Origin: Deltaproteobacteria bacterium
GTDB lineage: Bacteria; Desulfobacterota; Desulfarculia; Adiutricales; Adiutricaceae
Length of the DNA stretch: 39,361 bases
Assembly: GCA_031263525.1 (NCBI GenBank)
Contig: JAISFP010000001.1
Location: 1-39,361 of the forward strand
Direction: 5' to 3'
Below the pieces are notes generated by a model. It had not been told where the DNA came from. It searched no databases and saw only the letters and a list, made by a program, of their open reading frames with translations. Below are positions 7,279-36,247 of the stretch, piece after piece (the first letter of the stretch is position 1; every line of letters begins with the position of its first letter). Position numbers and translations under genes: made by a program.

Positions 7279-9420
7279 ATGCCCGCTCCCCTTCCCGAAG
7301 ACATCCTGATCCCGATCCTGGTCCTTGCCGGCCGGGGACCAGTCAGACCCGGCACGCTGGAGGAAGCGGTCCTGCGCCTGGCCGGCGACCCGGGAAGCCC
7401 GCTTCCCGCATCAAGCTTCCAGACGGAATTCCACGATCTCCCAGGCCTCATCAGCTCATCATGCGAGGGCCTGGCCATGTCCGGGCTCCTCGACCGCCTC
7501 TCCGGAGGACGCTACGGGATAACCCCCCGCGGACAGCGGAGCCTCCAAATGGCCATCGAGAGGATGGACTCGTCTCTCCTCGAAAGATGCCCGGGCTTCC
7601 GGGAACTCGCACCCAGGGCCCCGAGCCCGCACGGCAACGCGGACTTCAGCCCTGCTCTGCCGCCTCCGGGCACAGCCTCGCCGCCCGGCCCAGCTGCTTC
7701 TCCTCGCGCCTCCACGCCGCCCCCCGGCACCGTTCCGCCGCGCGTACCCGCCTCCCACCCCGGAGCAGTCCCGCCTCCCCGCGCCTTCATGTCGACAGGC
7801 ACCGCTCCGCCGAGAGCACCCGTTCCTCTGCCCGGAGCTACCACGACTCCTCGCGCCTTCATGCTGCCTCCAGGAACCGCTCATCAGCCCGGAGCAGCCC
7901 CGCCTCCTCGCGCCGCTGCTCTTCCCCACGTCCAAGCCCCTCAGCCCGGAACCGCGATACCTCCTTGCGCCCTTTCTCCACCGCCCGGCTCCGCTCCCCC
8001 GCACTTCCCCGCCCCTCTGCCAGGTGCTGCCCCGCCTTCTCGCGCCTTCACGCCACCGCCCGGCTCCGCTCCCCCGCACTTCCCCGCCCCTCAGCCAGGT
8101 GCTGCCCCGCCTTCTCGCGCCTTCACGCCGCCGCCCGGCTCCGCTCCCCCTCACGTCCCCGCCCCTCAGCCAGGAGCTGCCCCGCCTTCTCGCGCCTTCC
8201 CGCCGCCCGGCTCCGCTCCCCCTCACGTCCCCGCCCCTCAGCCAGGTGCTGCCCCGCCTTCTCGCGCCTTCATGCCGCCGCCCGGCTCCGCTTTTCCCCA
8301 CGTCCAAGCCCCCCAGCCCGGAACCGCGATGCCGGCTCGCGGCCTGATTTCGCCACCAGGCTCCGCTCCTCCAACCGCCTCCGTTCTTCAGCCCTTCCCC
8401 GCCTCTCAGCCCGGTGCTGCCCCGCCGCCACGCCCCTTTACGGCGCAGCCTGGCTCCGCTCCGCCGGCCGCCTCCGTTCCACATCGCATCCCCGCCCCTC
8501 TGCCCGGAACTGCACCGCCGCCCGGCACCGCTCCCCCGAGCATCCCCGCCCCTCAGCCCGGTACAGTTTCGCCGCCCGGCTCCGCACCCCCGAGAATCCT
8601 CGTCCCCCAGCCCGGTACTGCTCCGCCGCCTCGCGCCTCCACTGCGCCTGGATACCTTTCGCATAAGAATGCTGCCGGACAGGCCTCCCCGGCTTTCACT
8701 GATGGCTCCATTATCCGCGAGCCGCCCCGGGCGACCTTCGCCGCCCGGCTTCCCGAGCCGCCCCGGCAGCCGGGTGCCCTGCAGTCTGACGGAGGCAGGC
8801 TTCCGGAAGCACCCGTGAACCCGAGCACGGCCCCTCCTTCGGAGGTCCTCCATGAACAGCCACCGCGGTCTCCAGCTTCTGGCAGTTCAGTAACCATTGC
8901 ACAAAATATTCAGCGTCCGACGCCGGAGCCGTCCCCGCCTGACGTGCCGGAGAGAGGAAAGGCCCCCTGGATGGCCGGGGCCATCGTCACGCCCGAGGAT
9001 CCCCGCAGGTCGGAGGACGCCAGGAGGGCCGAGGCGGACTTCAGGGCCAGGACGGGCGGGAACCAGCAGGAGATTCTGAGGGCGATCCGCCGGGAGGCCA
9101 GGAATGCCAGGAAGGCCAAACTGCTAAGGAAGTACGGGCATCTGGACCCGAGCCGTGAGGAGGAGGCATTCCTGGCAAGGATGGCGCTGGCCGAGGAGGC
9201 GGAACGTGCGGAGGGTGACCGCCGCGCACTGGATGCCGGGTGCGAGGAGTGTCTCATGCGTGACGAGGAGGTCACGATTGAGGAGAGGGCCCTGCAGTTT
9301 GCCACCGACCGACTCGAGGCGGAGGCCATCTGGGAGGAAGAGGCCCTGCGGGAGGAGACCGACCGCGCCCAGGACGCGCCCCCTCCCCCCGCCAGCCGCG
9401 TCCGTCCACCCTCTCGGTGA
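7279..9420 (+). CDS. Mrr_N-like winged-helix protein with long Pro/Ala repeat region and charged helical C-terminus; no recognisable nuclease domain
   Basis: N-terminus LPEDILIPILVLAGRGPVRPGTLEEAVLRL...LISSSCEGLAMSGLLDRLSGGRYGITPRGQRSLQMAIERMDSSLLERCPGFREL matches the wH module of the other array genes. ~75 bp in-frame repeats (PPGSAPPHFPAPQPGAAPPSRAFTP). Confidence 0.7.
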   Translation: MPAPLPEDILIPILVLAGRGPVRPGTLEEAVLRLAGDPGSPLPASSFQTEFHDLPGLISSSCEGLAMSGLLDRLSGGRYGITPRGQRSLQMAIERMDSSLLERCPGFRELAPRAPSPHGNADFSPALPPPGTASPPGPAASPRASTPPPGTVPPRVPASHPGAVPPPRAFMSTGTAPPRAPVPLPGATTTPRAFMLPPGTAHQPGAAPPPRAAALPHVQAPQPGTAIPPCALSPPPGSAPPHFPAPLPGAAPPSRAFTPPPGSAPPHFPAPQPGAAPPSRAFTPPPGSAPPHVPAPQPGAAPPSRAFPPPGSAPPHVPAPQPGAAPPSRAFMPPPGSAFPHVQAPQPGTAMPARGLISPPGSAPPTASVLQPFPASQPGAAPPPRPFTAQPGSAPPAASVPHRIPAPLPGTAPPPGTAPPSIPAPQPGTVSPPGSAPPRILVPQPGTAPPPRASTAPGYLSHKNAAGQASPAFTDGSIIREPPRATFAARLPEPPRQPGALQSDGGRLPEAPVNPSTAPPSEVLHEQPPRSPASGSSVTIAQNIQRPTPEPSPPDVPERGKAPWMAGAIVTPEDPRRSEDARRAEADFRARTGGNQQEILRAIRREARNARKAKLLRKYGHLDPSREEEAFLARMALAEEAERAEGDRRALDAGCEECLMRDEEVTIEERALQFATDRLEAEAIWEEEALREETDRAQDAPPPPASRVRPPSR

Positions 9421-10302: not shown

Positions 10303-12945
10303 ATGACCGACGCCCCTTTCGCGGAAATACTCGTTCCAGTGCTGGCCATGCACGCCCTGCACAACAGTCCCGATCCCGCTGCCCTGGAGGGCCACGTCCT
10401 GGGTCTAACGGCCGGGGAGCCGGACGGGACAGGCTGCCCCCCGCAGGACCCCTTCGGGCCCGGCATGGAGGGGGGCGACCCGGGAGGGATGTTCTGCCGG
10501 ATCCTCTGGGCAGTGCGCCGCCTGGAGGACATGGGCCACCTGACCCGCTCGCCCGTCCCCGGGCTCCACGCCATCACCCCCGAGGCCAGGATGGTGCTGG
10601 CCACGGTCCTCCGCATCGCCGGCCCGGAAGGCTCGCTCGTGAGGAGGTACCCGGGCCTGGGCCGCCTCGTCCCCTCCCGGCGTGAGCCGGAACCCTGGGA
10701 GACGACCGGCGGGCTCGGGTCCGGGGACCTGGAGGCCGTGGCCCCCTGGGAGGGGGCAAGCCCACTGACCCATTCCGGGCTAGCCATGCCGCTCATGGCG
10801 GCCGCGCTGGATCTCTCGTGGGACCCTCGGTCCGGGCCCCGCGAGCTCCTGGCCATGGCCCTGAGGCTGGCGGGCGCGGCAAGGCACCTCTCCGGGCTCC
10901 GCCCCCCGGACCCGAGCTGCCCGGATCTTGACCGCGTCTTCGAGGAGACTGCCGGCACGCTGGCCAGTGCCGGGCTCCTGCACCGAGCCGGCAGCGACAC
11001 CGTGCCCTTCAGGATAACCGACGCGGGCAGGCCCGTCGCCCTGGGCCTGGACCCGCTCAGGCGCCTCCTGGCCTGCTCCGCCGCCTGTTCTGGCTTGCGG
11101 CCCGGTTCAGGGCCCACCGGCATGGGCGCGGACGACCTCCTGAACCTGGAGCGGGCCGCCCTCGAGCTCAGGGCCGGGGATCTTGCCCCCATCGCCAGGG
11201 GGATCCTCGCCACCGGCCGCGCAGCCTTCAGGCGGCTCGGGACGGAGGTCTCCGCAGCAGCGGCGGCGCGCGTGCCGGGCCGCAGGTCCCTCATCCCCTT
11301 CCAGGACGTCCGGGCCGGGGACGGCTCCGCAGCCGCGAGGAAAGTCGACGCCCTGCGGGGACGCATGGAGCGCAGGGGCACAGGCTGCTGGGCCCTCCTC
11401 GCGGCGGGGAATCTCCACCCCAAGGTCCAGGACGCCGTTACGGCGGCCTCGCCCAGGTTCAAGGCCGCGGACGAGACCCGCCTGGCGGAGCTCATGTGCG
11501 CGCTGGGATGCGGGGTGACGCCCCTCCCCCGTCTGGAGTTCCGGATGCCGGACCGGGCCTTCTTCGATTCCCTGACCGCCCCCCGCCCGGCCGACACGGG
11601 CCGGAAACGACCGGGGAGGAAGCCGCGGATTGTGGGGAACGGCGTCTGGGAAACCCCCGCCGGACAGATGGTCGACTGCGAATGGCCGCTGGCCTTTTCC
11701 TGGCAGCCGACGCCGGCTGCCTCTGCCGGCGCGACCGGGAACGCCCAGCCGTACCCTGCGGACCAGGCCGGCACGTCCGGTGCCGCCTCGTCGAATCCAG
11801 CGGACCGGGGCGACGCGGCCGGGTCCCCATCGCCGAACTCCCCTGACCAGACCGGCGCTGACCCCGGAGCCAAGCGCCGGAAGGCCATGGCCCGCAAGGA
11901 GACGGCCCCGGAATGGACCCACGCCTCCCTTTTCAGCCATGAGGACGGCACCCGGAAGCCGGCCGACGGTACCGCGGATGCCGGGGCCGACCCCGAAAGC
12001 CCAGCTCCTGCGACATCATCTGCTGAAGACACTGCTTCTGCCTCCGCAGATACCGAATGCCCGGCTCCCGCCTCGGCCTCCTCCCCGGAAGCCGCCGGAA
12101 CCTCGGCAGGCGCCCCCGAAGATGGCACCCCGTCAGCGACCGCCGCCGAAACTTCCCCTGAAATGGCCGCCTCCGGGCCCGGAGCCCAGGAGGCCGCCGC
12201 CGGGAGCGAGGAGAGCGCCGCAGCTCAGGCCCCTGAGGCCGGAGCCCAGGAGGCCGCCGCCGGGAGCGAAGATGGCGCCGCAACTCCGGACCCGAATGCC
12301 GGGTCCCAGAAGGCCGCCGCCGGGAGCGAAGATGGCGCCGCGGCTCCTGACCCGAAGGCAGGGTCCCAGAAGGCCGCCGCCGGGCACGAGGCTCACGACG
12401 ACGATCCTCGCCCGCAGCCCAGGCCCTGCGACAATCCGGAGGAGTTCCTGAGGGAGTGGTCATGCCGCATGGACGAGATTGCGGAAAGGGAGCTTGAGGA
12501 GAACGTCCTCGCGCTCGGGGAGGAGCCGCTCCTTAAGCTGGGCCGCATCATCGCGGACGCGGCCAGGCGGACCTCGCCGGAACTGAGGGTCTCCGGTCTC
12601 GGGGACTGGGGCGTGAGCTTACCGGGCATCTTTCCCGAGACCTGCCCGAACCAGCACGTGCTCCCCGTCAGGGCCAGGGCCTCCGGACTGGCGGAGGCGG
12701 GCGATCTGGAACGCATTGTCCAGGACATGGAGACCGCACGGGTCTCGAGGGCCGTCCTGTTCGCCCCCCTCGGTCTGGACGGCGGGGCTGCGGCCCGCGC
12801 GGAAGCCCTCTCAGGAAGGATCCGCTGCCTGGAAGCGAAGGATACTGCCCGGCTCATGCTGAGGCTCGGGGTGGGCACGAAGGTCTTCCTCTCGGTCGAG
12901 CGCTCCTTGGCGGACATGGACTACCTGGCCGCCCTGGAGGAGTAG
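10303..12945 (+). CDS. Mrr-like protein, fused architecture: wH - wH - class A degenerate Mrr domain - repeat linker - class B degenerate Mrr domain
   Basis: Class A: WALLAAGNLHPKVQDAVTAASPRFKAADETRLAELMCALGCGV..MPDRAFFDSL. Class B at C-terminus: SRAVLFAPLGLDGGAAARAEALSGRIRCLEAKDTARLMLRLGVGT. 20-aa in-frame linker repeats (GAQEAAAGSEDGAATPDPNA). Confidence 0.75.
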   Translation: MTDAPFAEILVPVLAMHALHNSPDPAALEGHVLGLTAGEPDGTGCPPQDPFGPGMEGGDPGGMFCRILWAVRRLEDMGHLTRSPVPGLHAITPEARMVLATVLRIAGPEGSLVRRYPGLGRLVPSRREPEPWETTGGLGSGDLEAVAPWEGASPLTHSGLAMPLMAAALDLSWDPRSGPRELLAMALRLAGAARHLSGLRPPDPSCPDLDRVFEETAGTLASAGLLHRAGSDTVPFRITDAGRPVALGLDPLRRLLACSAACSGLRPGSGPTGMGADDLLNLERAALELRAGDLAPIARGILATGRAAFRRLGTEVSAAAAARVPGRRSLIPFQDVRAGDGSAAARKVDALRGRMERRGTGCWALLAAGNLHPKVQDAVTAASPRFKAADETRLAELMCALGCGVTPLPRLEFRMPDRAFFDSLTAPRPADTGRKRPGRKPRIVGNGVWETPAGQMVDCEWPLAFSWQPTPAASAGATGNAQPYPADQAGTSGAASSNPADRGDAAGSPSPNSPDQTGADPGAKRRKAMARKETAPEWTHASLFSHEDGTRKPADGTADAGADPESPAPATSSAEDTASASADTECPAPASASSPEAAGTSAGAPEDGTPSATAAETSPEMAASGPGAQEAAAGSEESAAAQAPEAGAQEAAAGSEDGAATPDPNAGSQKAAAGSEDGAAAPDPKAGSQKAAAGHEAHDDDPRPQPRPCDNPEEFLREWSCRMDEIAERELEENVLALGEEPLLKLGRIIADAARRTSPELRVSGLGDWGVSLPGIFPETCPNQHVLPVRARASGLAEAGDLERIVQDMETARVSRAVLFAPLGLDGGAAARAEALSGRIRCLEAKDTARLMLRLGVGTKVFLSVERSLADMDYLAALEE

Positions 12946-13355
12946 CGCCCAGCCCCCGCCCGGGCCCGCCTGCGGACGGACGGCCCTGCGGGCGCCCGCC
13001 GTTCATGCGGAAGGCTGGACACGCCACGCCATGCCGCGCCCTGAAACATCAGGCAGGCGGACAGTCCGGGTCGCGCCCTGTTCGCACTCATCTTAGTACA
13101 GCCATGCCATGCCATGACGGGCCGTGAGGTCATGCCCGCCGGACGGCCCTGAAGGGGGCGAACAGTTTACAGAAACGGCGAGATACGCTATATTGAGTTC
13201 AAAAGTGTTGTCCGGCGGACGACCGTCTGCGGCCCGGCCTAATTCCATGCCGCCCGGCCAGGGCTTCCCCTGGTCCCCGGCCCCGGTCCGCCCCCGGCCA
13301 GACCCCAGTCCTTCACCCAGTCCCGTGCCCGTCTCGGCACCCCGTGCGGTTGACC

Positions 13356-14903
13356 ATGCCCCTGCCTCCCGTCGACATCTTCTATCCTGCCGTGCTCGAG
13401 TTCTCTTTCACCTTCAGGACGGTGTCCGTGGACTCGCTCAGGGGTCCCGTGGGCCGGCGGCTGAAGATCTTGGACGGCCAGCCCGACGCCCCGGCCCCTT
13501 CCGGAAACGAGACCGGGATCGACTACTCCATACGCAGGGCCCTGGACGACCTGGAACGGGCAGGGCTCATGGCCCGTACGGATTTCAGGACATTCGAGAT
13601 TACCGAGAAGGGCATGGGCCTGTTCCCGTCCATCACGTATGAGCGGCCCCTCGCCGTCATCCTGAACGAAATCATGGCCGGGAAGGCCGGGGGCAACCCG
13701 CGGACTGCCAGTCCCCGCCCGGAAGAGCGGCGGTTCCCCGCAGGTCCCGCCGCCCGGGACCACAGCGGCCCGCTCTCCGCCGCCGGGTGCCGCCTGCCGG
13801 CGCTCGCGGCCCTGGCCCGCCTCGGCCATGCCTCCTGCACGGACATCAGGACCGAATCGCTGAACATGCTCACGGCCCAGGCAGCGGCCAGCGGCATCAG
13901 GCATTTTGATCCGGACAGCCCGGATCTGCTCGTCAAAATCCGTCAGGCCGTCACGTCCCTGATAAGCTCCGGTCGCGCGGAACGCGTCAGCAGAGGCATA
14001 TACAAAATCACGCCTTTCGGCCTGGAGACCCTCACAAGGCACTTCCCGGATTTCGAGGGCGCCGCCGGGCCGCGCCGGGCCGCGCCGGCACCGCCCGCCA
14101 GAAATCTCGCCTCCCCGAACGATGCCGCCAAGCTCCGCGAAGCGCTCGGCCGCTGGGCGGCGGCTCTCGGCCCGAAAATGAAGGAGGGGCTCGCGGCAGC
14201 CGTCTCCCGCAGGGAGGCGGACTATGACGGACTGAAGAATGGGGCGCCATCCGACGCGGCCCGCGCCTCCCGGCACGAGGCAGGCGCTTCGCAGGACATG
14301 TCCTCCATCGTCCGGCTCCATGAGGAAGCCATGGCGGCGACGACGGAGGCCCGGGCCATCCGGGCCCAGATCGATGCCGAAAATGCAAGGCTTATGGACC
14401 CCATCGCCTTCGGCACGGGCCCCTTCCGGTCGGGAAGTCCCCTCCCCCGCGACCACTACAGCGCCGTCGCGGACGCCGTCAGGGAATACGAGGCCGACGT
14501 CATAGGGACCCTCAAGAGGCTCATCCTGGAGCTGGACCCCGAGAGCTTCGCCAGGCTCGCGGAAGCCGCCGCCCCCGGCATCTGGGAGGGCATGGACCCC
14601 GGAGGCGCCCCGGCCCCCAGCGAGGTGAGGGCCGTCACCGAGTCCGAGGCCCGCGACGGGCTCGACTGGCTCAGGATCTTCGCCATGGACATGCTGTCCA
14701 GATCCGCCGGTCCCTGGGCCCTCTTCATCTCCGGCGAGCTCCCCCCTGAGGCGGCGGAGATCGTCGCAAGGCTCCCCGGCCACGCTAAGGTCGCCGACGC
14801 CTCCCGCATGGCGGCGCTCATGTACCGCTACGGAGTGGGTGTCCGGACGGTCGGCGTCCTTGCGGCGAAGGAGGCCGACCCCAAGGTCTTCGGATGGAGG
14901 TAG
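13356..14903 (+). CDS. Mrr-like protein, wH - wH - class A degenerate Mrr domain
   Basis: wH: IDYSIRRALDDLERAGLMARTDFRTFEITEKGMGLFPSITYE and VTSLISSGRAERVSRGIYKITPFGLETLTRHFPDFE. C-terminus: WALFISGELPPEAAEIVARLPGHAKVADASRMAALMYRYGVGV. Confidence 0.7.
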   Translation: MPLPPVDIFYPAVLEFSFTFRTVSVDSLRGPVGRRLKILDGQPDAPAPSGNETGIDYSIRRALDDLERAGLMARTDFRTFEITEKGMGLFPSITYERPLAVILNEIMAGKAGGNPRTASPRPEERRFPAGPAARDHSGPLSAAGCRLPALAALARLGHASCTDIRTESLNMLTAQAAASGIRHFDPDSPDLLVKIRQAVTSLISSGRAERVSRGIYKITPFGLETLTRHFPDFEGAAGPRRAAPAPPARNLASPNDAAKLREALGRWAAALGPKMKEGLAAAVSRREADYDGLKNGAPSDAARASRHEAGASQDMSSIVRLHEEAMAATTEARAIRAQIDAENARLMDPIAFGTGPFRSGSPLPRDHYSAVADAVREYEADVIGTLKRLILELDPESFARLAEAAAPGIWEGMDPGGAPAPSEVRAVTESEARDGLDWLRIFAMDMLSRSAGPWALFISGELPPEAAEIVARLPGHAKVADASRMAALMYRYGVGVRTVGVLAAKEADPKVFGWR

Positions 14904-15182: not shown

Positions 15183-15367
15183 GTCCCCAACCATGACTCC
15201 AGTTTCATGCCCCGTTAACGGTGGCGTTCCCCCACCGGGCCTGAACCGGAAGCCGACATGCCGCTCCGGCAACCCCATCCCCCGCGACCTGACCGCAGCC
15301 TTTGACAGATTTCCCCCGCCTGCAGCCTCCGCCGCTCACTGCGCAACTACCACCCCAGAAGGACAGC

Positions 15368-16795
15368 ATGCACGTCCCCAGCCTCGAAGCCTTTCTCCTG
15401 CCCGTCCTGATCCTCGTCTGCGAGGGCCAGAGGACGACCGCCAGGATCCTCCGCCGGATGGCCCGCCGCCTGGAGCTGCCCGCCGGCGCCGAAAAATGTG
15501 CGACGCCCGAGCCGGCCCCGCCAGCCGGCGAGGGGGAAGCCAAGCCTCCCGAGACTGACCTGTCCTCCGGTGAGCGAAAAACAACGCCTCCCGAGACGGA
15601 ACAGACCTCGGGGGAGGGTGAAGCAACGTCTCGCGAGACGGACCGTGCCTCCGGGAAGCGGGACGACGCGCCACTCGGGACGGACCAGACCTCTGGGGAG
15701 GGGGAAGCAACGCATCCCGAGACGGACCAGACCTCGGGTGTGGGGGAAGATACGCCTCGCGAGACGGACCAGACCTCGGGGGAGGGGGAAGACGCGCCTC
15801 GCGAGACCGAAAGTGCCGCCGGTGAGTGGAAGGACGTGCCCCGCGAGACGGACCGGGCCGCCGGAGAAGAGAAAGACATTCCTCCCGAAATGCTCCTGGC
15901 GGAGACCAGGATCATGAAGGCGACAAGACACCTCATGGCCGCCAGGTTAATCAAGATGACCAGGAAGGGCAGGCTCCTGGCCACTGACAGGGGCCGCGCG
16001 GCGGTGGCGCTGGGGACGGACCGGATAGACTTCGCGTTCCTGAGGCTCATGCCCGGCTACGAGGAGAGGCTGACCCGCGCCCGCGACCTCAGACTCGCGA
16101 TGGCCACGTCCGCAACTCCCTCCCTGTCCGCCGAGGCCGCACGTGTTGCCGAGGCCCTACGTCCGTCCGAGCCCGCAGGACCCTCCGAGGCCGCAGATCA
16201 GGTCAAGGCCGCAGATCAGGCCGAGGACCAGACACCTGCCGCCCCGCAGCAGGTGCCGCCCCCGCCCCTCCTGAAGAGGGTCGAAGAAGCCTTCAAGTCA
16301 CTGGAGTCGGCCGCCGCAGACGACCTTGCCGAGAAGGTCCGGCGCCTCGTTCCCGAAAGCCTGCACCAGCTCGCCATACGGGTCCTGACCGCCATGTCCC
16401 AGGTCCCCCCGGAGCTCTACACGGACGCGCAGGCCGCCTCCGCAGGCATGGTGCCCACCCTCTTCGGCGAGGAGGCGCTGGAACAGGACTCCACTCTTCT
16501 GGGCCTCAGGTCATTCTCGGACGGCCCGGTGAGCCGCAATGACATGGAGACTCTGGAGGATGAGAGGGAGCGGCGCGGGGCGACAAGGTGCATCATGGTG
16601 TCTACGGCACCGTTTACCCGCGAGGCGACGGAATTCGCTGGAAAAAATCCCCGACGCATCGCCATGGTGGGCCTGAAAGAGCTGGCCCAGCTCATGCTCA
16701 CGTATGACATAGGCGTCATATCCGTCAAACAGCTCGAGCTCAAAGCCGTTGACCACGCGTTCTTCGAGGAGGCCAGAGGCGTCAAGGGAAAGTGA
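15368..16795 (+). CDS. Mrr-like protein, wH split by acidic repeat insertion - class B degenerate Mrr domain
   Basis: SLEAFLLPVLILVCEGQRTTARILRRMARRLELP | repeats (TDQTSGEGEATHPE)n | ETRIMKATRHLMAARLIKMTRKGRLLATDRGRAAVALGTDRIDFAFLRLMPGYEE. C-terminus: CIMVSTAPFTREATEFAGKNPRRIAMVGLKELAQLMLTYDIGVISVKQLELKAVDHAFFEE, close to canonical Mrr C-termini. Start at 15368 (aaggacagcATG). Confidence 0.75.
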   Translation: MHVPSLEAFLLPVLILVCEGQRTTARILRRMARRLELPAGAEKCATPEPAPPAGEGEAKPPETDLSSGERKTTPPETEQTSGEGEATSRETDRASGKRDDAPLGTDQTSGEGEATHPETDQTSGVGEDTPRETDQTSGEGEDAPRETESAAGEWKDVPRETDRAAGEEKDIPPEMLLAETRIMKATRHLMAARLIKMTRKGRLLATDRGRAAVALGTDRIDFAFLRLMPGYEERLTRARDLRLAMATSATPSLSAEAARVAEALRPSEPAGPSEAADQVKAADQAEDQTPAAPQQVPPPPLLKRVEEAFKSLESAAADDLAEKVRRLVPESLHQLAIRVLTAMSQVPPELYTDAQAASAGMVPTLFGEEALEQDSTLLGLRSFSDGPVSRNDMETLEDERERRGATRCIMVSTAPFTREATEFAGKNPRRIAMVGLKELAQLMLTYDIGVISVKQLELKAVDHAFFEEARGVKGK

Positions 16796-19202: not shown

Positions 19203-19579
19203 TAACCGATCGTGCCTATTCAAGGCAATACCGAAGCATATTTTGTATAATACCACATGAATGCGGCAGAAAGCAACCCTTCCGCCAAGCCATACTGGCA
19301 AGATACTGTTAAGGAGACGGCAACTTCCCAAAAGCCCAGCCGTCTCTTACGACCGATCAAAACATCGTCATTACTGGCAAGCCAATGCAATTCTATCCGA
19401 ATGAGGGCGACAACCGAGCCGGCAGAGCCAGGAAAATCGAGCCGTCCGATGACCGGCCGTTTCTAATGAAGCAACAGTGCCGTATTGGCATGGATATTGC
19501 CTGGCCAACCTCTCTGGTCATGTCAAAATTTTTGCGTGCGCCATGAAAACTGACATATTGCTAATTTTTTGGCAAACAT

Positions 19580-20062
19580 TCAGGTATCCCCAAGCGGGAC
19601 TCAACAGAGGGATCTTAATCAACCCAAAGACCGTCTACAGAAACTATTTACCCCCACATGAAGTATTAAAAATTGACTGTGCAACTTAAATGTTTGCTCA
19701 TCATGGCTCTGTCCCCCGAAAAAGCTTCTCAATGGAGGGGTTCCTGAATAGTTATAAAATTTTACATACCTCGCCGAATCTAACATTCCTCCTTACCAAA
19801 ATTATGACTAGATATCTGGCACCACCAAGATTTTTGTGACAGCGCAGAATCACGGCAACATTATGGGGCATGAGGCCACCAGCCGCCTGAACTCGATGTC
19901 ATCTCGCGAGGCCATCACGGCACTCTTGACTGGCAAGACTCCCGATTTCATCCTCGAGTGGTTGAATTTGCCTCCAGTGGAAGAGTAATCCCTGTTGGAT
20001 GTCTGGATACACTCCGAGGTGAATCTCTCTATTGGATAATTTTGTGACTCATAAAATAACAT
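19580..20062 (+). mobile_element. IS66-family remnants: 5'-end fragment plus C-terminal fragment
   Basis: 19586-19757 resembles 5812-5984 (..cccccacatgaagtat..catcatggctct..cctgaatagtta). 19850-19988 reads MSSREAITALLTGKTPDFILEWLNLPPVEE*, and is duplicated inverted at 6120-6300. Confidence 0.65.
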
Positions 20063-20604
20063 TAAATATCATATGTAATGCTTGTATTACAAACAATTAT
20101 TATTGAAAATAATATTTAAATAAATAAATTTTATCATCACCATATTAAATATTGTCTATATTAAACATAAATACGTATCATTAATTTTTTCAATATTTTG
20201 TAATATTAAATAGTAAACATTGTAAATAATCATTAAATTTTTCCATAGATTATTCTATTGATGATAACATTAATCAAATTAATTTTAAATTAATTATATC
20301 ACATTTAATTTTATCTTTCAAAAATGATGAAAATACAACTGAATGTGTACGCAAATCAAAATTTTTATATTCTGAAAATTTTTACAAATAATTATGTGCT
20401 TAAATATAATTAAAAAATTCTTACATTTGAATTATTTAAATTATCAAAATTTTGTCCAATCGAAACTGCGTAAGTTGACTTGGATAGTAGCGACAATTTT
20501 TTTTTTGCACGTAAACACACATGACTTTCCTTGACCAGTGATACTTCTGAATCCGGCGGACAGAGAACCACAGGTATGGTACCAGTTGACGTCATGACTG
20601 GAAG

Positions 20605-20644
20605 GGGCACCCTTCCGGCAGGAAAGCCTGGAGGGTGCCCTTTT
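20605..20644 (+). terminator. Rho-independent-type hairpin followed by T tract
   Basis: GGGCACCCTTCC..GGAGGGTGCCC followed by TTTT; no confident upstream + strand gene. Confidence 0.6.
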
Positions 20645-20694
20645 GCCGAATACCTATGAAGCCAGGTTAATCTGGAATTATCAGATTATCAAAG

Positions 20695-23055: not shown

Positions 23056-23086
23056 AACATTTCTCCTTGCTGAAAAAGTTCGCATA

Positions 23087-26070: not shown

Positions 26071-27444
26071 ATGACTGCCAAGGTACCCTTCCAAGATTTC
26101 CTGCTCCCGGTGCTCACCCTCGCCTCCAGAGAGGAGCAGGTGTCCCAGAAATCCATCAAGAAGCCTCTCCTGGATTTCATGAGGCTCCCGGACGGCTTCG
26201 AGAGGGAGCTCCTGCCCAAAGGCGGGACCGTGCTGTCCTCCCGGATCAGCTGGGCGTTCACCTGGCTCTATCATTCGGGCCTCCTGAAGCGAGTCGCCCT
26301 CGGGAACTACTCCGTCACCGCCGAGGGCCTCCGGGTCCTCTCCCTCGGACTGGAGAGGCTCGACAGGAAGTTCCTTATGCAGTACCCGGGCTTCCGGAAG
26401 GCGTGGACAAAAATCGACACTAGCGACGGCCCTGCCAGGCGGGGCCGCCCTGCAGGAAACGCCCCACCTGCCGGACCTCCCCCGCCTTCCGAGCCGGGCC
26501 CCCGCACCCAGCCACGGGCCGCAACTCTGTCCAGGCCCCCGAAGCCGACCGGCGAGAAGGTCCCCAAGACCCCCTCCCCCCATGGGCCCGGCGGTCAGGA
26601 CGGCGCACGTCCCGTCTCCTCCACCGAGCTCCTGCTCCCGGTCCTGAAGGCAGCGGAAGACCTTAGGGGCCGTGAGGCAGCCAACATCAAGGCTCTCATT
26701 CCCCCGGCCATGGCCTACCTGGCCGAGCACAGGGCGAAGACCGGAGGTCCTCCCCCCGGCACGGCTGACCCGGCTGACCCCGAGCTCATCGAGAGGGTCC
26801 GAAGCGCCTGCTTCCGGCTCGAGTCCGCAGGACTCATGAGGAAGAAGGCCGCGAGCCCCATGGACAGGGTCACGGACGACGGCAGAGCGCTCCTCGCCGA
26901 AAACCGCGAGAGCATCGACTACCAAGTCCTGAAGCGCTACCCCGCCTATAACTGGGCCATGGCCAGGGGGGAAGCCCGCCAGATCCTGGCCGATGCCGAG
27001 GCCGACTCGAGGGACAGGACGGTGTCCGAGATGGCCGGCCTGGTGCTCGGCCTGGGGAGGGAGGGCTTCCGCAGGCTCGGCCGGGAGATAGCCCGCGTCT
27101 CGGGTCCCGGAGCCGGCGGCCCGCCCTTCGGGAGCAGAGAGATGCCCTCCTTCACCATCGACGCGGAGGACGGTGCGGCAGCCGCGGCCAGCCTCGCGAC
27201 CTTCGCCTCCGAAATGGGTGAGGACAGGGCCTGGGTCCTTCTCGCCCGCGGGGACTTCCCCCGCGACACTGACCGACTCCTGCTCAGGCTCACCCCCAGG
27301 GTCAAGGCTACCAACGCAAGAGCGATCGCGGCGATCATGCACGATCTTGGCCTGGGCGTCACCGGCCCTCCTGCCCTGGACGGGCTCTCCGTCCTGGAGC
27401 TGAATAAGCTCTCCCCCGGCTTCTTCAAGAATCTCGGAAGCTGA
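26071..27444 (+). CDS. Mrr-like protein, wH - wH - class A degenerate Mrr domain
   Basis: VPFQDFLLPVLTLASREEQVSQKSIKKPLLDFMRLPDGFERELLPKGGTVLSSRISWAFTWLYHSGLLKRVALGNYSVTAEGLRVLSLGLERLDRKFLMQYPGFRKAW is a clear Mrr_N pattern. C-terminus: WVLLARGDFPRDTDRLLLRLTPRVKATNARAIAAIMHDLGLGV. Confidence 0.8.
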   Translation: MTAKVPFQDFLLPVLTLASREEQVSQKSIKKPLLDFMRLPDGFERELLPKGGTVLSSRISWAFTWLYHSGLLKRVALGNYSVTAEGLRVLSLGLERLDRKFLMQYPGFRKAWTKIDTSDGPARRGRPAGNAPPAGPPPPSEPGPRTQPRAATLSRPPKPTGEKVPKTPSPHGPGGQDGARPVSSTELLLPVLKAAEDLRGREAANIKALIPPAMAYLAEHRAKTGGPPPGTADPADPELIERVRSACFRLESAGLMRKKAASPMDRVTDDGRALLAENRESIDYQVLKRYPAYNWAMARGEARQILADAEADSRDRTVSEMAGLVLGLGREGFRRLGREIARVSGPGAGGPPFGSREMPSFTIDAEDGAAAAASLATFASEMGEDRAWVLLARGDFPRDTDRLLLRLTPRVKATNARAIAAIMHDLGLGVTGPPALDGLSVLELNKLSPGFFKNLGS

Positions 27445-27545: not shown

Positions 27546-27798
27546 ACCTCCCATCCGTCGGTCCGGCCTGGGGCTATGAGGCGACCGCCAGCATCGGGAG
27601 CACCATGCGAAGATTCCCGGCCGACCCATGAGAACCCAAGGAGCACCAGAGAGAGCCCAAGAAATCCAGGCGACCCATGAGTTCCCAAGAGAAATCAAGA
27701 GAACCATTGATTTCCCGGTGAAAACGGCAAGAATCGAAGAACTTCCTAAAAACGCAAAGAGAACTCAGACACATCTCAAAACCCAGGATGCACTCAAA

Positions 27799-29541
27799 AT
27801 GAACATCATCGACAGGCTGCTCCCGCAGCTCATCAGACTCGCAGACTCGGACACGGGCATCTCCCCGGAATCGGCCCTTCAGGAGCTCGGCTCCATGCCG
27901 GGCTTCCTGGAGGAGCCCGCCGGGATCCCCGGAACCGGAGACAGTATCGCGGCCTTGTCCGGAGCCCTCGTCGCGGAGGGTTTCGGCCACCTGGAGGACG
28001 CGGCACTCGTCGGCCTCCTCCCGTCCGGGTTGTACATAACCACCACGAAGGGCCGGGGCCTGGTGAATTTCCTGGACGGCAGGGTGGACCGCAAGTTCCT
28101 GGAAAGTCGCTACCCGGAGTACGTGGCCAACCGGACCAGGCGCGAGGCCGAGAAGGTCCCGGACAACGGCGGGGTGAAGGCTCCTCCCGGCGGCACGGGC
28201 ACCCCCGAGACGGGCACCGGCGCTGCCGATGAGCCGGCCGGCACCGGGTCTCCGGAGCAGTCTCCCCCCGAGTCCGAGACCGGCGATCCATGGGATGCCC
28301 CCTGGCCCCCCCGCCCCGGCTGGCCCTTCAGGCGCGAGGCGATCCTTTCCGGCCTGCCGCTCAGGTCCTCTAGCACGGCGGCGGTCCTTGCAGTCATGGG
28401 GGAAAAGGGCGAGGCCAGCGTGAAAGATGTCCGCAAGGCGGTCTTCGGCCTCCTGCGCGACGCGAGAAGGCCTACTCGCACGAGCAGGAAGAACAGGGAG
28501 ATCGGTCCGTGGCTGAAAGACGACATCTACGACTGCATAAGGGATCTTGCCAGTGCAAACATTCTAGACAATGTCTTCACGGGGACCTACAAGATCACTG
28601 AACCCGGCAAGCTCCTCTTCCGAGAAAGGCGCGAGGAGATCACGCGTGAGTTCCTTCGCTCGATCGACATCAAACCATCGCCTGCCAACCCCCCGAATAG
28701 CGGCACAGAGCTCCCACCCCTTTCGGAGCCGCAGCCGGTGCCAGATCCCTGCGACATAACCTGGGATCCGCCGGCTCCCGAGCCGGAGCCGGAGCCCCGG
28801 CCCGGCGACATGACCGAGGGTCCGACGGCACCCGAGCCGCATCCGCGGCCCGGCAACATAACCGGGGATCCGCCTCTGCCCGAGACGAAGCCGGAGCCCG
28901 GCGACATGCCCGGAGGTCCGCCGCTGCCCAAGCCCCAACCGGGGGCGGACCCAGTCGACATATTCGGGGGTCCGCCGGCTCCCGTGCCGGGGCGGAAGAG
29001 GGGCCCCACCCCGCCGGCCGGCGCCGGGAGCCCCGCTGACGTCATTCGGGAGTACGCGGGGATCCTCAGGGATGACGTCGTCGGGAGGCTCGGCGAGAAA
29101 ATCCTGAAACTCCCCGTGAAGAAGCTGGACGACCTCGCCCGCCGGCTTGCCGAGGCGCTCAGGCTGGCCTCGACCGACCCCGCCAGCCCTCCGGCGGGGA
29201 AATGGGGCGGCCCCGTCAGGGGGCTGTTCGACTCGCCGCTCCCGGGCGAGGACAAGCTCATGATCCGGGTGAAGGCGGGCGCCGTGGCGACCGCCTCCGA
29301 CCTGGAGTCCCTCGTGGCCGACATGAACGGGGCGGACGTCACGCGGGGCGTCCTCTTCGCCCCCCTCGGCCTGGACGGCGGGGCCACGGACCGCCTGGGC
29401 AACTACGCCGGGATCCTGTGCGCCCTGGACGCCGGGCAGATGGCCAGGCTCATGCACGACCACGGCGTGGGCGTGGAGCTCTTCCGGAGGGTCGTCTGCA
29501 GAGTGCCCGACCCCGCCTTCTTCGCCAGGCTGGACGGATAG
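27799..29541 (+). CDS. Mrr-like protein, wH - wH - Pro-rich repeat linker - class B degenerate Mrr domain
   Basis: wH2: DDIYDCIRDLASANILDNVFTGTYKITEPGKLLFRERREEITREFL. C-terminus: WGGPVRGLFDSPLPGEDKLMIRVKAGAVATASDLESLVADMNGADVTRGVLFAPLGLDGGATDRLGNYAGILCALDAGQMARLMHDHGVGV. Start MNIIDRLLPQL preferred over the ORF-track start at 27628. Confidence 0.75.
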   Translation: MNIIDRLLPQLIRLADSDTGISPESALQELGSMPGFLEEPAGIPGTGDSIAALSGALVAEGFGHLEDAALVGLLPSGLYITTTKGRGLVNFLDGRVDRKFLESRYPEYVANRTRREAEKVPDNGGVKAPPGGTGTPETGTGAADEPAGTGSPEQSPPESETGDPWDAPWPPRPGWPFRREAILSGLPLRSSSTAAVLAVMGEKGEASVKDVRKAVFGLLRDARRPTRTSRKNREIGPWLKDDIYDCIRDLASANILDNVFTGTYKITEPGKLLFRERREEITREFLRSIDIKPSPANPPNSGTELPPLSEPQPVPDPCDITWDPPAPEPEPEPRPGDMTEGPTAPEPHPRPGNITGDPPLPETKPEPGDMPGGPPLPKPQPGADPVDIFGGPPAPVPGRKRGPTPPAGAGSPADVIREYAGILRDDVVGRLGEKILKLPVKKLDDLARRLAEALRLASTDPASPPAGKWGGPVRGLFDSPLPGEDKLMIRVKAGAVATASDLESLVADMNGADVTRGVLFAPLGLDGGATDRLGNYAGILCALDAGQMARLMHDHGVGVELFRRVVCRVPDPAFFARLDG

Positions 29542-29584: not shown

Positions 29585-30613
29585 ATGCCCTTTCCCAAAT
29601 ACGAGGATCTCACGCTCCCGGCGCTGAGGTTCCTGGCCGGCGTCCCCTCAGCCTCCCCGGCTGACATGGAGGGGGCGATGGCCGGTCTCTTCCTTCTGTC
29701 GGACGACGACAGGAGGGAGCGTACCTCAAAGAGCCAGCAGCCCAGGCTCGTGGCCAACATCAACTGGGCCTGCAGGTACATGTGGCACGCGGGCCTGCTC
29801 ATTCGCCCGGACCCGGACAGAAAGAGCGTGTACGGGGTCAGCGGCGAAGGCTTGAGAGTTCTGGCACTCGGACTGGACAGGATAGACTTCGAGTTCCTTG
29901 TGCTCTACCCCTCCTTCCGTGAATACATCGCCAAGAGCCGGGAGTCGGCCAAAGCCAGGAAAAAGGCCAAGGATCTGGCGGCGTCAGAGGCGGCAGATGC
30001 AGAAAAGGCAGCCGGGACCAAGAGCGGCACCATACCTGGCGGAACCCCCGCCCCCGAGGCCTCCCGGCCAGGAAGGGACCGGACGGTGCCCGCGCCGCCT
30101 GCGGCAGGCCGGGAAGCGGAAGCGGCGCTGGACGCGGCCGAGGCCTCGCTCCGCGCAGAAGCCGTCCGCGAGCTCGCGGCCCTCGCTGGCGGGCTGGGAC
30201 GCCTTGGCTTCGTCCGGCTTGTGACGGATGCCATGCTCGCCCGTGGCTACAGCCCGGAGGGGTCAGCCGCTCGGGACGACGTTGCCGCCAGTGGCGCGGT
30301 CATGAAGAGCCCGCTCAGGCCCGGGCTCCTGTACGTCCTGGCGCTTCCCGCCTCCGCCGGCCCTTCCTCCGAGAGCTCGGTCCGGGCATTCGAACGGCAG
30401 GCGGCGGCGAGCGGCGCTGCCGACTGGCTTCTGGTCACCGCCTGCACGCTTGGGAAGACGGACGAGGGGACGGGCCGGACGAGGATCATGGACATTTCCG
30501 AGCTGGCCGGGCTCATGCTCGACAGCGGCGTGGGCACCAGGGATCTGGCTGTCCTGGAACTGAAGAAGGAGAAGCGGGGCTTCTTCTCCGGCCTTGGGAG
30601 GCGTCAGAGCTAA
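29585..30613 (+). CDS. Mrr-like protein, single wH - degenerate Mrr domain; least diverged member
   Basis: FPKYEDLTLPALRFLAG...RLVANINWACRYMWHAGLLIRPDPDRKSVYGVSGEGLRVLALGLDRIDFEFLVLYPSFREY. C-terminus: GRLGFVRLVTDAMLARGYSPEG...ASGAVMKSPLRPGLLYVLALPASAGP...DISELAGLMLDSGVGT. Confidence 0.8.
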   Translation: MPFPKYEDLTLPALRFLAGVPSASPADMEGAMAGLFLLSDDDRRERTSKSQQPRLVANINWACRYMWHAGLLIRPDPDRKSVYGVSGEGLRVLALGLDRIDFEFLVLYPSFREYIAKSRESAKARKKAKDLAASEAADAEKAAGTKSGTIPGGTPAPEASRPGRDRTVPAPPAAGREAEAALDAAEASLRAEAVRELAALAGGLGRLGFVRLVTDAMLARGYSPEGSAARDDVAASGAVMKSPLRPGLLYVLALPASAGPSSESSVRAFERQAAASGAADWLLVTACTLGKTDEGTGRTRIMDISELAGLMLDSGVGTRDLAVLELKKEKRGFFSGLGRRQS

Positions 30614-31568: not shown

Positions 31569-32849
31569 ATGTCCAACGTCCCCTTCAACAAGTTCCTGCA
31601 GCCCGTGCTGAAGCTGGCCGGAGAGTCGGATCGGATCACCTGCGAGACCGCAAAGGCTCCCGTCATGAGGCTCCTGGAACTCCCTCCCGAGTTCGCGGAG
31701 GAGCGCACCCCTTCCGGCAGCATCACGAAAATATCGAACAGGATCTCGTGGGCGTTCACCTACCTGAAGGCCGCCGGGCTGCTGGACCGGGTCGCCAGGG
31801 GGACCTACTCCATTACAGAGGAGGGCCGCAGCGTCCTGGACATGGGGCCCAGGATTCTGGACCGGGAGTTCCTCCTCCGCTACCCAAGCTTCAGGGAGTT
31901 CCTCCTCAGGAGCCGGGCGAGCTCCCGAAGCGGGGGCGCTCCCTCGCCGTCCGGCGCCGTGGACTCCGCCCCCACGTACCTGAGGACCACCCTGCTCTCG
32001 GAGATAGCCGAGGAGACCGCCCCTCCCGTACGCGGCGAGGGGAAGCCCGGCACGGGAGGGTTCTCCTCCGGAGAGCTGCTGCTCCCCGTACTGAAGGCCC
32101 TGGAGACGCTGGGCGAGGCGACCCTCGAGTCCGTCATGGCCTCCGCCCTCGAGCTTCTCTCCGCCCGAAGGGAGCTCTCGGGAGGGGACCCGCCGGATCC
32201 CGCCCACCCGAGGGCAGCCGAGAGGTTCGAGACCTCCGCCTACTACCTCAGGGTGGCGGGATATCTCAGAAGAAACGACAGGGGCCTGTACTCGGTGACC
32301 GAGGAGGGCCGCGAGACCCTGGCCAGGGACTTGGACGAGCTCAGGCTGACCGACCTCGGCGACTCCCCCTCCTACCGGGCGGTCCGCATCGTCGCGGAAG
32401 AGAAGAAACGGGTGGACGCGGCCTACGAGGAGCTCATGGAACAGAGCCACTCCGAGACCGTAGCCAGGCTCAGGACCATGAAGAAGGACGGGTTCAAGGC
32501 CCTGGCCCGCAGGATCGCCTGCGGCCTCGCCGTCCGGAACGGCGAGCCGGAGGCCGGCGCGACCTTCAGGGTCCTGGCCGCCGAGGACAGCCACTGGGAG
32601 GCCGAGGACATCGAGAGCTTCGCCGGGCACATGAAGACCAGAAGAGACGGAGAGTGGACCCTCTTCACCAGAGGCGAGCTCTGCCCCAAGTACCAGGCCA
32701 TCGTCCGCAGCCTCCCCATGAACGTGAAGATCTGCGACGAGTCCGCCGCCGCGGCGCTCATGTTCGAGCTCGGGGTCGGCGTAACGGTCCGGAAGACCTG
32801 GAAGATCAGGGCGATCGACCAGAAATACTTCGACATCATCACCATCTAG
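31569..32849 (+). CDS. Mrr-like protein, wH - wH - class A degenerate Mrr domain
   Basis: VPFNKFLQPVLKLAGESDRITCETAKAPVMRLLELPPEFAEERTPSGSITKISNRISWAFTYLKAAGLLDRVARGTYSITEEGRSVLDMGPRILDREFLLRYPSFREFLL. C-terminus: WTLFTRGELCPKYQAIVRSLPMNVKICDESAAAALMFELGVGVTVRKTWKIRAIDQKYFD. Confidence 0.85.
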   Translation: MSNVPFNKFLQPVLKLAGESDRITCETAKAPVMRLLELPPEFAEERTPSGSITKISNRISWAFTYLKAAGLLDRVARGTYSITEEGRSVLDMGPRILDREFLLRYPSFREFLLRSRASSRSGGAPSPSGAVDSAPTYLRTTLLSEIAEETAPPVRGEGKPGTGGFSSGELLLPVLKALETLGEATLESVMASALELLSARRELSGGDPPDPAHPRAAERFETSAYYLRVAGYLRRNDRGLYSVTEEGRETLARDLDELRLTDLGDSPSYRAVRIVAEEKKRVDAAYEELMEQSHSETVARLRTMKKDGFKALARRIACGLAVRNGEPEAGATFRVLAAEDSHWEAEDIESFAGHMKTRRDGEWTLFTRGELCPKYQAIVRSLPMNVKICDESAAAALMFELGVGVTVRKTWKIRAIDQKYFDIITI

Positions 32850-32887: not shown

Positions 32888-35029
32888 ATGAGCATCCCCC
32901 CGCCTGACGACTTCCTGCTTCCCGTCCTAAAGCTCTCCGGCGAGGCGTTCGGGACCTCCATTGGCTCCGTCCTGAAGGCGGTTCCGGATCTCATGGGCCT
33001 CTCCCCCGCCGAGATGGAGGCCCAGGCCCGCGGCAGGGACAGGACCGTCGTCGAGGGCCACGTGGGCGAGGCCTTCACCGTCCTGGAGGCGGCAGGCCTG
33101 GTTGACCGCCTCGAGAACGGGATCTTCAGCGCCACCGAAAACGGCCACGACGTCCTCTCGCTGGAGACGCGCTGGCTGGCCAGGGGCTTCCTGGAGAGCC
33201 TGCCCTCATTCGAAGACAACCTCGAACGGATTCGGGAGAGGAGACGGCAGAGGAGACACCGGAGGACCCTCGCCGGACCGGCTGCGGACCTGCCCCCCGG
33301 ACCGGGGGAGGCCCCGGCGCCGGAACATCCCTCCGGATCGCCCGGCCCCGCCCGGCCGGCGGTCCCGCCCCCCTCCGGCGAAGCGACGACCGAAGGCCCC
33401 GGAGGCCGGTCCGGCGCGCCTTCCGTCACGACCCCCGGTGCCGGGGCGGGGACTGTGGCACCTCCCGCAGAACCCGGAACTCCGCCCGGCCCGCCGGAGC
33501 GGCACCCCGGATGGCCTTTCTCCCGCGAGAAGGCCGCCAGGGGCCTCGTCCCGAATCCGTCCGCGATCAGGGCCGGGGTCCTCGCGATCCTGGGAGAGTC
33601 GAACAAGTTCGTCCACAAGGACAAGGTCTGCAGGCGCGTCACCGAACTCTACCGCGAGGCCATGCGGCCCGCGCGGAAGAGAATCTCCGAGCCGGACAGG
33701 GCGAATCTCGAGAAAAGGACCGGCAGGGCCCTGAGCGACCTCTGCGGGACGGGCCTTCTTGAGCACCCGTCCAAGACCATGATCAGGGGGCGCCCGTCCA
33801 AGACCACGATCAAGGGAAAGTACGGAATCAGCGCCGCCGGGAGAAAGCTCTTCTCCGAGAGCCCGACCGAGATCAGCAACTCCTTTCTGAGGAAGCTCCA
33901 GGCCGATCGGCTGGCCCCCGGCACGCCAGCCCGTTCCACCGCCGCACGACCGTCCTGGTCCCTGCTGCAAGACCTTGAGGACCTGCTCAAGGCCCACCCG
34001 CCAACCTCTCCACACCCGCCGGTGCCGGAGGTGAAGCCCCGGGGCCCGGAGGTTCCGACCGCACCTGTTCCCCCGCCCGTAGGTCCGGCCCCCTCCGGCG
34101 GAAAGCCGGTGCCTGCTCCCGCCCCGCCCGCAGGTCCGGCCCCCTCCGGCGAAGAGCCGGGGACCGCTACTGCTCCGCCCGAAGGTCCGGCCCCCTCCGT
34201 CGGGCAGCCGGTGCCTGCTCCCGCCCCGCCCGCAGGTCCGGCCCCCTCCGGCGCACAGCCGGGGACCGCTACTGCTCCACCCGCAGATCCGGCCCCCTCC
34301 GGCGCACGGCCGGGGACCGCTACTGCCCCTCCCGCAGGTCCGGCCCCCTCCGGCGGGCAGCCTGGGACCGTTCCCGCCCCGCCCGCAGGGCCGGCCTCCG
34401 TGCTGGATCTGCCGGGAACTGCGGCCCCCCCGCCTGACGAACCGGCCCCGTGGCCCCCGTCCCTGGAGCCGCCGCAGACGTCTTACGGCCCGGATGCCAG
34501 CCCCGCCGACAGGCTTCTCAGGTCCATCCAAAAAATCGAGAACGCCCACAAGGCCGTGTTCCGGGACAAGATCTTCCGGCTCCGGAAGAACGGTCTCCGC
34601 GATCTCGGACTCCAGCTCGCGGAAGCGGTCCGCAAGGCTTCGGAGAAGGACTTCCCGGACGACGCCGGGAAATGGGGCGGCAGGGTCAGGGGACTCTTCG
34701 ACGAGGAGGACCCCGGCGCGGACGGGATCATCGTCCGCGCGAGGCCCTTCCAGGACGGGCCCGCCGGCCCGTCCGAGATGGAAGCGCTCGACGAGGAAAT
34801 GACGGCCGCCGGCATCCGGAGAGGGATCATCTTCGCCGCGGCCGGCTTCACGACCGAGGCCCTGGCCTGCGGCCCCGCCCTTTCCGGAAGAATCCGGGCC
34901 ATGGACGCGGAAGCCACGGCTGAACTCATGTACAGGCACGGCGAGGGCACCGTCGCCGACCTGGAGGTCGAGTACAAGGTCCCCGACAGGACCTTCCTGG
35001 ACAGCCTCGACGCCGGCTGGGAAAGCTGA
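32888..35029 (+). CDS. Mrr-like protein, wH - wH - Pro-rich repeat linker - class B degenerate Mrr domain
   Basis: DDFLLPVLKLSGEAFGTSIGSVLKAVPDLMGLSPAEMEAQ...VGEAFTVLEAAGLVDRLENGIFSATENGHDVLSLETRWLARGFLESLPSFEDNL. C-terminus: WGGRVRGLFDEEDPGADGIIVRARPFQDGPAGPSEMEALDEEMTAAGIRRGIIFAAAGFTTEALA...MDAEATAELMYRHGEGT. Confidence 0.8.
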   Translation: MSIPPPDDFLLPVLKLSGEAFGTSIGSVLKAVPDLMGLSPAEMEAQARGRDRTVVEGHVGEAFTVLEAAGLVDRLENGIFSATENGHDVLSLETRWLARGFLESLPSFEDNLERIRERRRQRRHRRTLAGPAADLPPGPGEAPAPEHPSGSPGPARPAVPPPSGEATTEGPGGRSGAPSVTTPGAGAGTVAPPAEPGTPPGPPERHPGWPFSREKAARGLVPNPSAIRAGVLAILGESNKFVHKDKVCRRVTELYREAMRPARKRISEPDRANLEKRTGRALSDLCGTGLLEHPSKTMIRGRPSKTTIKGKYGISAAGRKLFSESPTEISNSFLRKLQADRLAPGTPARSTAARPSWSLLQDLEDLLKAHPPTSPHPPVPEVKPRGPEVPTAPVPPPVGPAPSGGKPVPAPAPPAGPAPSGEEPGTATAPPEGPAPSVGQPVPAPAPPAGPAPSGAQPGTATAPPADPAPSGARPGTATAPPAGPAPSGGQPGTVPAPPAGPASVLDLPGTAAPPPDEPAPWPPSLEPPQTSYGPDASPADRLLRSIQKIENAHKAVFRDKIFRLRKNGLRDLGLQLAEAVRKASEKDFPDDAGKWGGRVRGLFDEEDPGADGIIVRARPFQDGPAGPSEMEALDEEMTAAGIRRGIIFAAAGFTTEALACGPALSGRIRAMDAEATAELMYRHGEGTVADLEVEYKVPDRTFLDSLDAGWES

Positions 35030-35056: not shown

Positions 35057-36247
35057 ATGAAACAGATTTCGGTGTACGATTTCATGCACCCCATCATGAC
35101 CCTGGCAGGCAAGGCCGGGCGGGTCTCCCCGGACACCCTCGAGGACCCGGTCATCCAGATCATGGAGCTGCCCCGGAGGCTCAAGAAGAAGATGGTCCCC
35201 TCCGGCCGCTTCTCCGTCATCGGCGCGAGCCTCTACGGGGCCTGCCACTTCCTCTCGGTCCTGGGCTTCCTGGACCCCGTCCAGGGAGGGTCCTACTCGG
35301 TATCCTCCCGTGGCCGCGACTATCTCAACTCCGAGCTCCAGGCCATTGACGAGGTGCTCCTCTCGCACCTATGCAATTTTAAGGTGGCGAGGGAGAGCCT
35401 GAAGGCCCTGCGTCTGTGGGATGAACCCGGTGCCGCCGCCGGGGAAGACAGGCGCGTGAAGGCCGCCGAGGCGGGCGAGCTTCACGCCGACGAGCTCCTG
35501 CTCCCGATCCTCCAGGTCACGAACGGGCTGGGGACGGCCACCCTCGAGTCCCTGGAGGGCCAGGTCATGAAGATAGTGGCGGACCGGAGGAGGGCTGCCG
35601 GCGGCTACTCGCCGGTTCTCCCCTCCGCGACCGTCGCGGGCATGCTCGCTGCCGCCTCCGAAAGCCTGAAGGCCGCCGGCCTCCTGAGGGGGCCGGCCGA
35701 CGGCCCTTTCCGGGTGACCGCCGAGGGACTGAAGCTCCTGGCCGGGGACCCAGCCGGGCTGGAACTGTCCGATCTGGAGTCCTACCCCACCTACCGTGCC
35801 AGGGAGATCGTTTCCGCCGAGACGGTGAAGCTCCAGGCGGCCTGCCATGACCTGAACGCCGACTCCGCAAGAAAGGCGGCGGAGCTCATCCGCAGGATGC
35901 GGCGGAAGGATCTCGACCGCCTGGCCAGGGACCTTTCCCGGGCCCTCGCCGCGGCCAGGGAGCCTGGTGGAGGAGCCTGCGCCGTCCTGGACGCCGCGGA
36001 CAGCCCGGAAGAGCTGGCGCGGCTCGGGAGCCTGACCGCCGCCGGCGCCGGCGGCGGGCTTCTGCTCGTACGGGGGAAGCTCCCCCCCGAACTCGCTGCG
36101 CTCATGCGCCAGCTCCCGCCCGGCACCACGATCGTCGACGAGGACTCCGCGGCCAGGCTCATGCTCCGGCACCGCGTGGGGACCGTCCGGAGCATCGCCA
36201 TAGTAAGGACGTTCGACGCTGACGCCTTCGACGCGTTCCTGGACTAG
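35057..36247 (+). CDS. Mrr-like protein, wH - wH - class A degenerate Mrr domain
   Basis: SVYDFMHPIMTLAGKAGRVSPDTLEDPVIQIMELPRRLKKKMVPSGRFSVIGASLYGACHFLSVLGFLDPVQGGSYSVSSRGRDYL. C-terminus: GLLLVRGKLPPELAALMRQLPPGTTIVDEDSAARLMLRHRVGT. Confidence 0.8.
   Translation: MKQISVYDFMHPIMTLAGKAGRVSPDTLEDPVIQIMELPRRLKKKMVPSGRFSVIGASLYGACHFLSVLGFLDPVQGGSYSVSSRGRDYLNSELQAIDEVLLSHLCNFKVARESLKALRLWDEPGAAAGEDRRVKAAEAGELHADELLLPILQVTNGLGTATLESLEGQVMKIVADRRRAAGGYSPVLPSATVAGMLAAASESLKAAGLLRGPADGPFRVTAEGLKLLAGDPAGLELSDLESYPTYRAREIVSAETVKLQAACHDLNADSARKAAELIRRMRRKDLDRLARDLSRALAAAREPGGGACAVLDAADSPEELARLGSLTAAGAGGGLLLVRGKLPPELAALMRQLPPGTTIVDEDSAARLMLRHRVGTVRSIAIVRTFDADAFDAFLD

Follow-up and report, generated by a model that had tools for sequence, protein, structure and literature searches.

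A natural fusion of two Mrr-derived domains that lack a complete catalytic site, otherwise encoded as adjacent gene pairs in a genus of Adiutricaceae

In a deltaproteobacterial genome, a single open frame encodes two winged helices (wH), a C-terminal domain of class A, a linker and a C-terminal domain of class B. To judge from their sequences, both classes derive from the nuclease domain of Mrr, a type IV restriction enzyme, as catalytically dead paralogs. The fusion is natural and, as its occurrence in a second species indicates, no younger than the divergence of the two species. Elsewhere in the genus A and B are encoded by neighboring genes. From this pairing and from the fusion, both read directly in the sequences, we infer a physical complex and its function: the somewhat favored explanation is that A and B form a pseudo-nuclease heterodimer devoid of cleavage activity. 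A broader and more tentative proposal is that the genus possesses heterodimeric pseudo-restriction enzymes of its own, up to eight pairs per genome, which would serve as non-cutting DNA scaffolds with varying numbers of winged helices, one pair being fused. Restriction enzymes are textbook DNA cutters, and the conversion of one of them by a genus into many paired non-cutters would, if true, be a rare and testable case of a defense enzyme remade as a module for DNA binding or regulation. The fusion indicates which domain would mediate pairing and provides a single-chain protein for a direct test of the proposed dimer.

The fusion gene and its counterpart in a second species

The window, i.e., the whole stretch of 39,361 nucleotides that was analyzed, corresponds to contig C295 of a genome that is 74% complete and comprises 6.7 Mb in 541 contigs. 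Its fusion gene (Table 1) had been described in a first-pass annotation as a single 880-aa frame of the wH-wH-A-linker-B type, with the A-then-B order of the separate gene pairs. Both points hold, as the frame is open, the order agrees, and family HMMs locate every domain, with E = 1.5e-37 and 4.7e-39 for the two C-terminal domains. These domains are found by the family HMMs only; a Pfam scan of the ORF detected zero domains, including the winged helices, which are of the Mrr_N type. The GC content at position 3 is approximately 0.84-0.93 in the wH, A and B parts of the gene and lower, 0.65-0.85, in the linker. Initially taken for a repeat linker, the latter does contain a clear tandem repeat (60 bp, 3.4 copies), but this is confined to one segment and the rest is merely low-complexity. 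In the class B part, the B C-terminal domain is present, but the B winged helices are missing. In the wH tree, both winged helices of the fusion group with those of A proteins and neither with those of B proteins. The B half is the B C-terminal domain alone, the winged helices of B being gone in both species that carry the fusion.

Table 1. Features of the fusion gene and of the surrounding gene cluster in the window
Feature	Coordinates	Strand	Basis
Solo-wH gene: wH, Pro-rich repeat linker, charged C-terminus	7279..9420	+	HMM, wH tree
A-B fusion gene, 880 aa, wH-wH-catA-linker-catB	10303..12945	+	Open frame of 880 codons, family HMMs, orthologous fusion in G002
Fusion wH1, A-wH1 type	10318..10659	+	HMM E=3e-15; sister of G002 fusion wH1, 100/100
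Fusion wH2, A-wH2 type	10774..11088	+	HMM E=3e-13; sister of G002 fusion wH2, 99/97
Class A Mrr C-terminal domain, predicted dead, DGGIDG segment deleted	11152..11577	+	Family HMM, C-domain tree, site inspection
Fusion linker, low-complexity, 292 aa, 60-bp tandem repeat at 12179-12384	11578..12453	+	G002 counterpart, 145 aa
Class B Mrr C-terminal domain, predicted dead, zero B winged helices	12454..12939	+	HMM, trees; AlphaFold2 pLDDT 85
A gene (wH-wH-catA)	13344..14903	+	Pfam, family HMMs
B gene, basal B subgroup	15302..16795	+	Family HMM, tree; 181 bits with the B profile vs 42.5 with the A profile
A gene (wH-wH-catA)	26071..27444	+	Pfam, family HMMs
B gene (wH-linker-wH-linker-catB)	27628..29541	+	Pfam, family HMMs
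Class C gene with a single wH and a further Mrr domain, predicted dead	29585..30613	+	HMM, tree, site inspection
A gene (wH-wH-catA)	31569..32849	+	Pfam, family HMMs
B gene (wH-linker-wH-linker-catB)	32888..35029	+	Pfam, family HMMs
A gene (wH-wH-catA)	35057..36247	+	Pfam, family HMMs
B gene (wH-linker-catB); probable start ATG at 36325	36307..37485	+	Family HMMs

An orthologous fusion with the same order is found in a second species of the genus, the termite-gut MAG G002 (Deltaproteobacteria isolate Gx485_bin203; C383:6330-8933). A sister bin whose name starts with Gx485 originates from a Glyptotermes termite (PMC11707648), and the genome of the window presumably comes from a termite gut as well. 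In the C-domain tree, the A halves of the two fusions are sisters (100/98), and so are their B halves (100/100), which upholds the initial claim of a natural fusion. Identities between the two proteins amount to 57% for wH1, 43% for wH2, 48% for A and 51% for B, while the linker has 292 residues in the window and 145 in G002, and its sequence is not conserved between the species. Contig C96 of a third species, G003, carries, as judged by eye, the start of the same fusion gene behind the same solo-wH gene, and then ends. The fusions of the window and of G002 are the only two-domain ORFs among the 37 C-terminal domains found with iterative HMMs over the loci of the window's genome and its sister species. 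When neutral evolution is simulated with 0.35 to 0.7 substitutions per site, several stops are expected per segment, with at most 7% of the runs stop-free; for the wH-wH-catA part 4 to 7 stops are expected, and the frames of the window and of G002 are both open.

That an assembly error joined two genes, a concern already voiced in the first-pass annotation, might be suspected from the fragmentation of the source MAG into 541 contigs and from the repeat in the linker. Nevertheless, the probability of misassembly is negligible, because the fusion recurs, A before B, in the independently assembled G002, where the linker is of another length, and two independent misassemblies of such a kind are not credible. 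This possibility was therefore rejected.

Descent from Mrr and loss of the catalytic site

The intact Mrr of the genus consists of two winged helices and a nuclease domain with DGGIDG...QAK, and profile comparisons align A, B and this Mrr with one another at E ~1e-22 to 2e-23. The likeness to modification-dependent restriction enzymes (Mrr_N + Mrr_cat) extends to the arrangement of a winged helix before a PD-(D/E)XK domain, and Mrr_N matches across the family. In the window, Pfam detects Mrr_N winged helices in the neighbors of the fusion, together with weakly matching Mrr_cat domains, and the genome has 16 Mrr_N matches. LAGLIDADG_3, a first guess, gave zero matches in the genome. The D..QxK site is complete in the three intact Mrr genes, all of them from sister species of the genus, but in none of the 15 A domains or the 17 B domains. 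Class A is devoid of the entire DGGIDG segment, and most B domains have kept a remnant of it from which the D is gone. A and B are putative pseudo-nucleases of the PD-(D/E)XK fold: their site is lost and their homology to Mrr is clear, while fold matches of the models (see below) are weak for B and not clear for A. Since the site is lost, cleavage of modified DNA by A or B appears unlikely.

A and B also differ from Mrr in being two paralogous lines encoded as pairs, in the number of winged helices of the B proteins, and in having given rise to a two-domain fusion. Two winged helices are present in A proteins whose N-terminus is complete, and 1 to 8 in B proteins; a G001 B protein (L036:12172-16485, -) has eight in a row. 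The wH tree groups them by position, as A-wH1, A-wH2, B-wH1 and B-wH2. In the C-domain tree the A clade is supported at 82/98 and the B clade less well; the subgroup of the gene at 15302 is not resolved in this tree and is placed in B by its profile scores. The ratio pN/pS, a rough estimate in GC-rich DNA, is 0.6-1.0 for A and B vs 0.23 for Mrr, and such fast change of dead domains fits a role in conflict or relaxed constraint alike.

Dead restriction-endonuclease domains also make up the Pfam family NA-iREase1 (NACHT-associated inactive restriction endonucleases). With a limit of E = 0.1, this model weakly matches 2 of the 17 B domains (best E=0.0055) and neither the A nor the B domain of the fusion, and the NACHT domain is absent from the window proteins scanned, including the neighbors of the fusion. 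The match reflects Mrr ancestry, as the intact Mrr of the genus scores better than the B domains. Catalytically inactive PD-(D/E)XK folds, in the N-terminal domain of RPB5 and the nuclease-like domain of RecC, have been retained for protein or DNA contacts, protein-protein contacts being the role considered for RPB5 (PMC1185551). In the fusion, the B domain was modeled by AlphaFold2 with a pLDDT of 85, and its PDB fold matches, RPB5, EcoT38I, AspBHI, MspJI and AF1548, are all weak (E 0.007 or worse); RPB5 chains are among the best of them. No sequence relation was seen between the B domain and RPB5 or RecC, which in addition are single subunits of large machines, unlike the A-B pair. The A half yielded a poorer model than the B half and no clear PDB fold match, and a PDB sequence search returned nothing relevant. 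The halves were modeled apart because none of the row mixes tried for a joint A+B alignment on the fusion put all A and B rows correctly.

Pairing of A and B, and how it may be explained

In profile searches, A and B were found in numbers of 8:8 in G000, 4:4 in G002, 4:5 in G003 and 1:1 in G001, which are lower bounds, each genome of the genus being an incomplete MAG. For 12 of the unfused A genes, out of 14 with a readable downstream neighbor, this neighbor is a B gene on the same strand; some gene orders were read off ORF tables by eye. Two A genes depart from this pattern: G002 15282, where B precedes A and an intact Mrr comes after A, and G003 C373, where A has no B behind it. Distances among A domains (n=14) and among their partner B domains correlate (r=0.59; 0/20,000 permutations). 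As linked duplication alone suffices to produce it, this correlation supports the pair as a unit of inheritance rather than binding; block duplication of neighboring genes would likewise be expected to yield co-inheritance and near 1:1 numbers.

Outside the genus, the A profile recognized no A in 31 further genomes from the family or in an even draw of ~400 genomes from the phylum, and the B profile no B in 58 further genomes from the class. The best match to A, at 66 bits, is an Mrr with an intact site, and the genomes sampled have ordinary single Mrr-like matches only. Searched for named relatives in GTDB genomes, A retrieved nothing and the intact Mrr the G002 contig only. Plasmid records matched the first wH alone, the genes concerned often bearing a restriction endonuclease annotation, and phage records gave zero matches.

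In the proposed scenario, an ancestral Mrr of the wH-wH-nuclease type would have given rise, within the genus, to two catalytically dead lines, which then multiplied as adjacent A-B pairs. The two dead nuclease domains would bind each other as a heterodimer that replaces the active, dimeric form of Mrr; the Mrr of E. coli is inactive as a tetramer and acts as a dimer (PMC12707154, PMC11279042). Held together by its C-terminal domains, the pair would sit on DNA as a non-cutting scaffold, with several winged helices on flexible linkers. The scaffold role taken alone is more doubtful than an A-B heterodimer devoid of cleavage. DNA binding by the winged helices is deduced from the Mrr_N family only. 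Masking or silencing of foreign or modified DNA, or else tempering of Mrr, would be a guess at what the pair does once bound.

The fusion might also be incidental, if adjacent A and B genes separated by repeat-bearing spacers lost a stop, their products taking part in one process without binding. The separate genes are indeed adjacent, some of them 39 bp apart or overlapping, tandem repeats occur in some spacers, and the linker sequence differs between the species. Such an accident is unlikely, however, given that two species have retained the fusion, its halves both open and alignable, and that the B winged helices were lost in each of them. Somewhat less likely still is the idea that A and B do not pair but each join intact Mrr subunits, forming mixed inactive oligomers that temper restriction. 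It would agree with the presence of an intact Mrr within the A/B cluster of G002 and also in G003, and with the switching of E. coli Mrr by its oligomeric state (PMC12707154). On the other hand, an intact Mrr was not detected in G000 and G001, neither of which is complete, profile searches detected Mrr without A or B in G005, and the near 1:1 numbers of A and B would be left unexplained. Finally, the many diverged adjacent pairs are reminiscent of cognate toxin-antidote or immunity pairs whose members neutralize each other, but this is highly improbable, as the active site is absent from both partners and the permanent fusion of a toxin to its antidote would be unusual.

The non-cutting A-B heterodimer is supported by the fusion shared with G002, the near 1:1 numbers, the A-then-B order, the correlation of partner distances, the lost D..QxK site and the frames that stayed open despite the stops expected. 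One gene joining the two in both species is, in particular, good evidence for A and B functioning as a pair, whose members would touch only in the proposed complex. The presence of RPB5 among the best fold matches of the modeled B domain may be counted on the same side. As the fusion keeps the B C-terminal domain alone, this domain may well be the part that matters in the pair, and its retention while the B winged helices were dropped fits the role of a partner for the A C-domain. Against the heterodimer count the linked duplication that would explain the correlation and the 1:1 numbers, the rapid change of A and B relative to Mrr, the A gene of G003 C373 without B, and the single B-A order in G002.

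Other genes and repeats of the cluster

The solo-wH gene directly precedes the fusion in two genomes (7279-9420 and L028:5080-6318), whose copies the wH tree shows to be orthologs (99/96), and, as far as inspection goes, also precedes the truncated start of the fusion in G003 (L081:1999-3549, -). It was considered as a displaced B winged helix, but its wH joins, weakly, the A-wH1 group. The third class with a presumably dead domain, C, follows a B gene in two genomes, in the window and at L033:1732-3114 (-), which suggests A-B-C triples. Between two stretches of the cluster, at 17286-23229, lie an AAA-ATPase_like/PDDEXK_9 gene and a TonB receptor gene, and the window contains an IS66 transposase fragment (3807-4487). 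A type ISP restriction-modification enzyme is encoded elsewhere in the genome (L019:7192-12123, -).

Several of the paralogs have, in the linker, a tandem repeat of their own that differs from the others (7924-8413, 12179-12384, 15530-15854, 34071-34449 and 36681-36934), and linkers therefore seem to evolve by repeat expansion. A short patch of the fusion linker at 11872-11961, with basic residues followed by ..LF...RKP, appears by eye to be common to the G002 linker; outside it, the two linkers are unlike each other.
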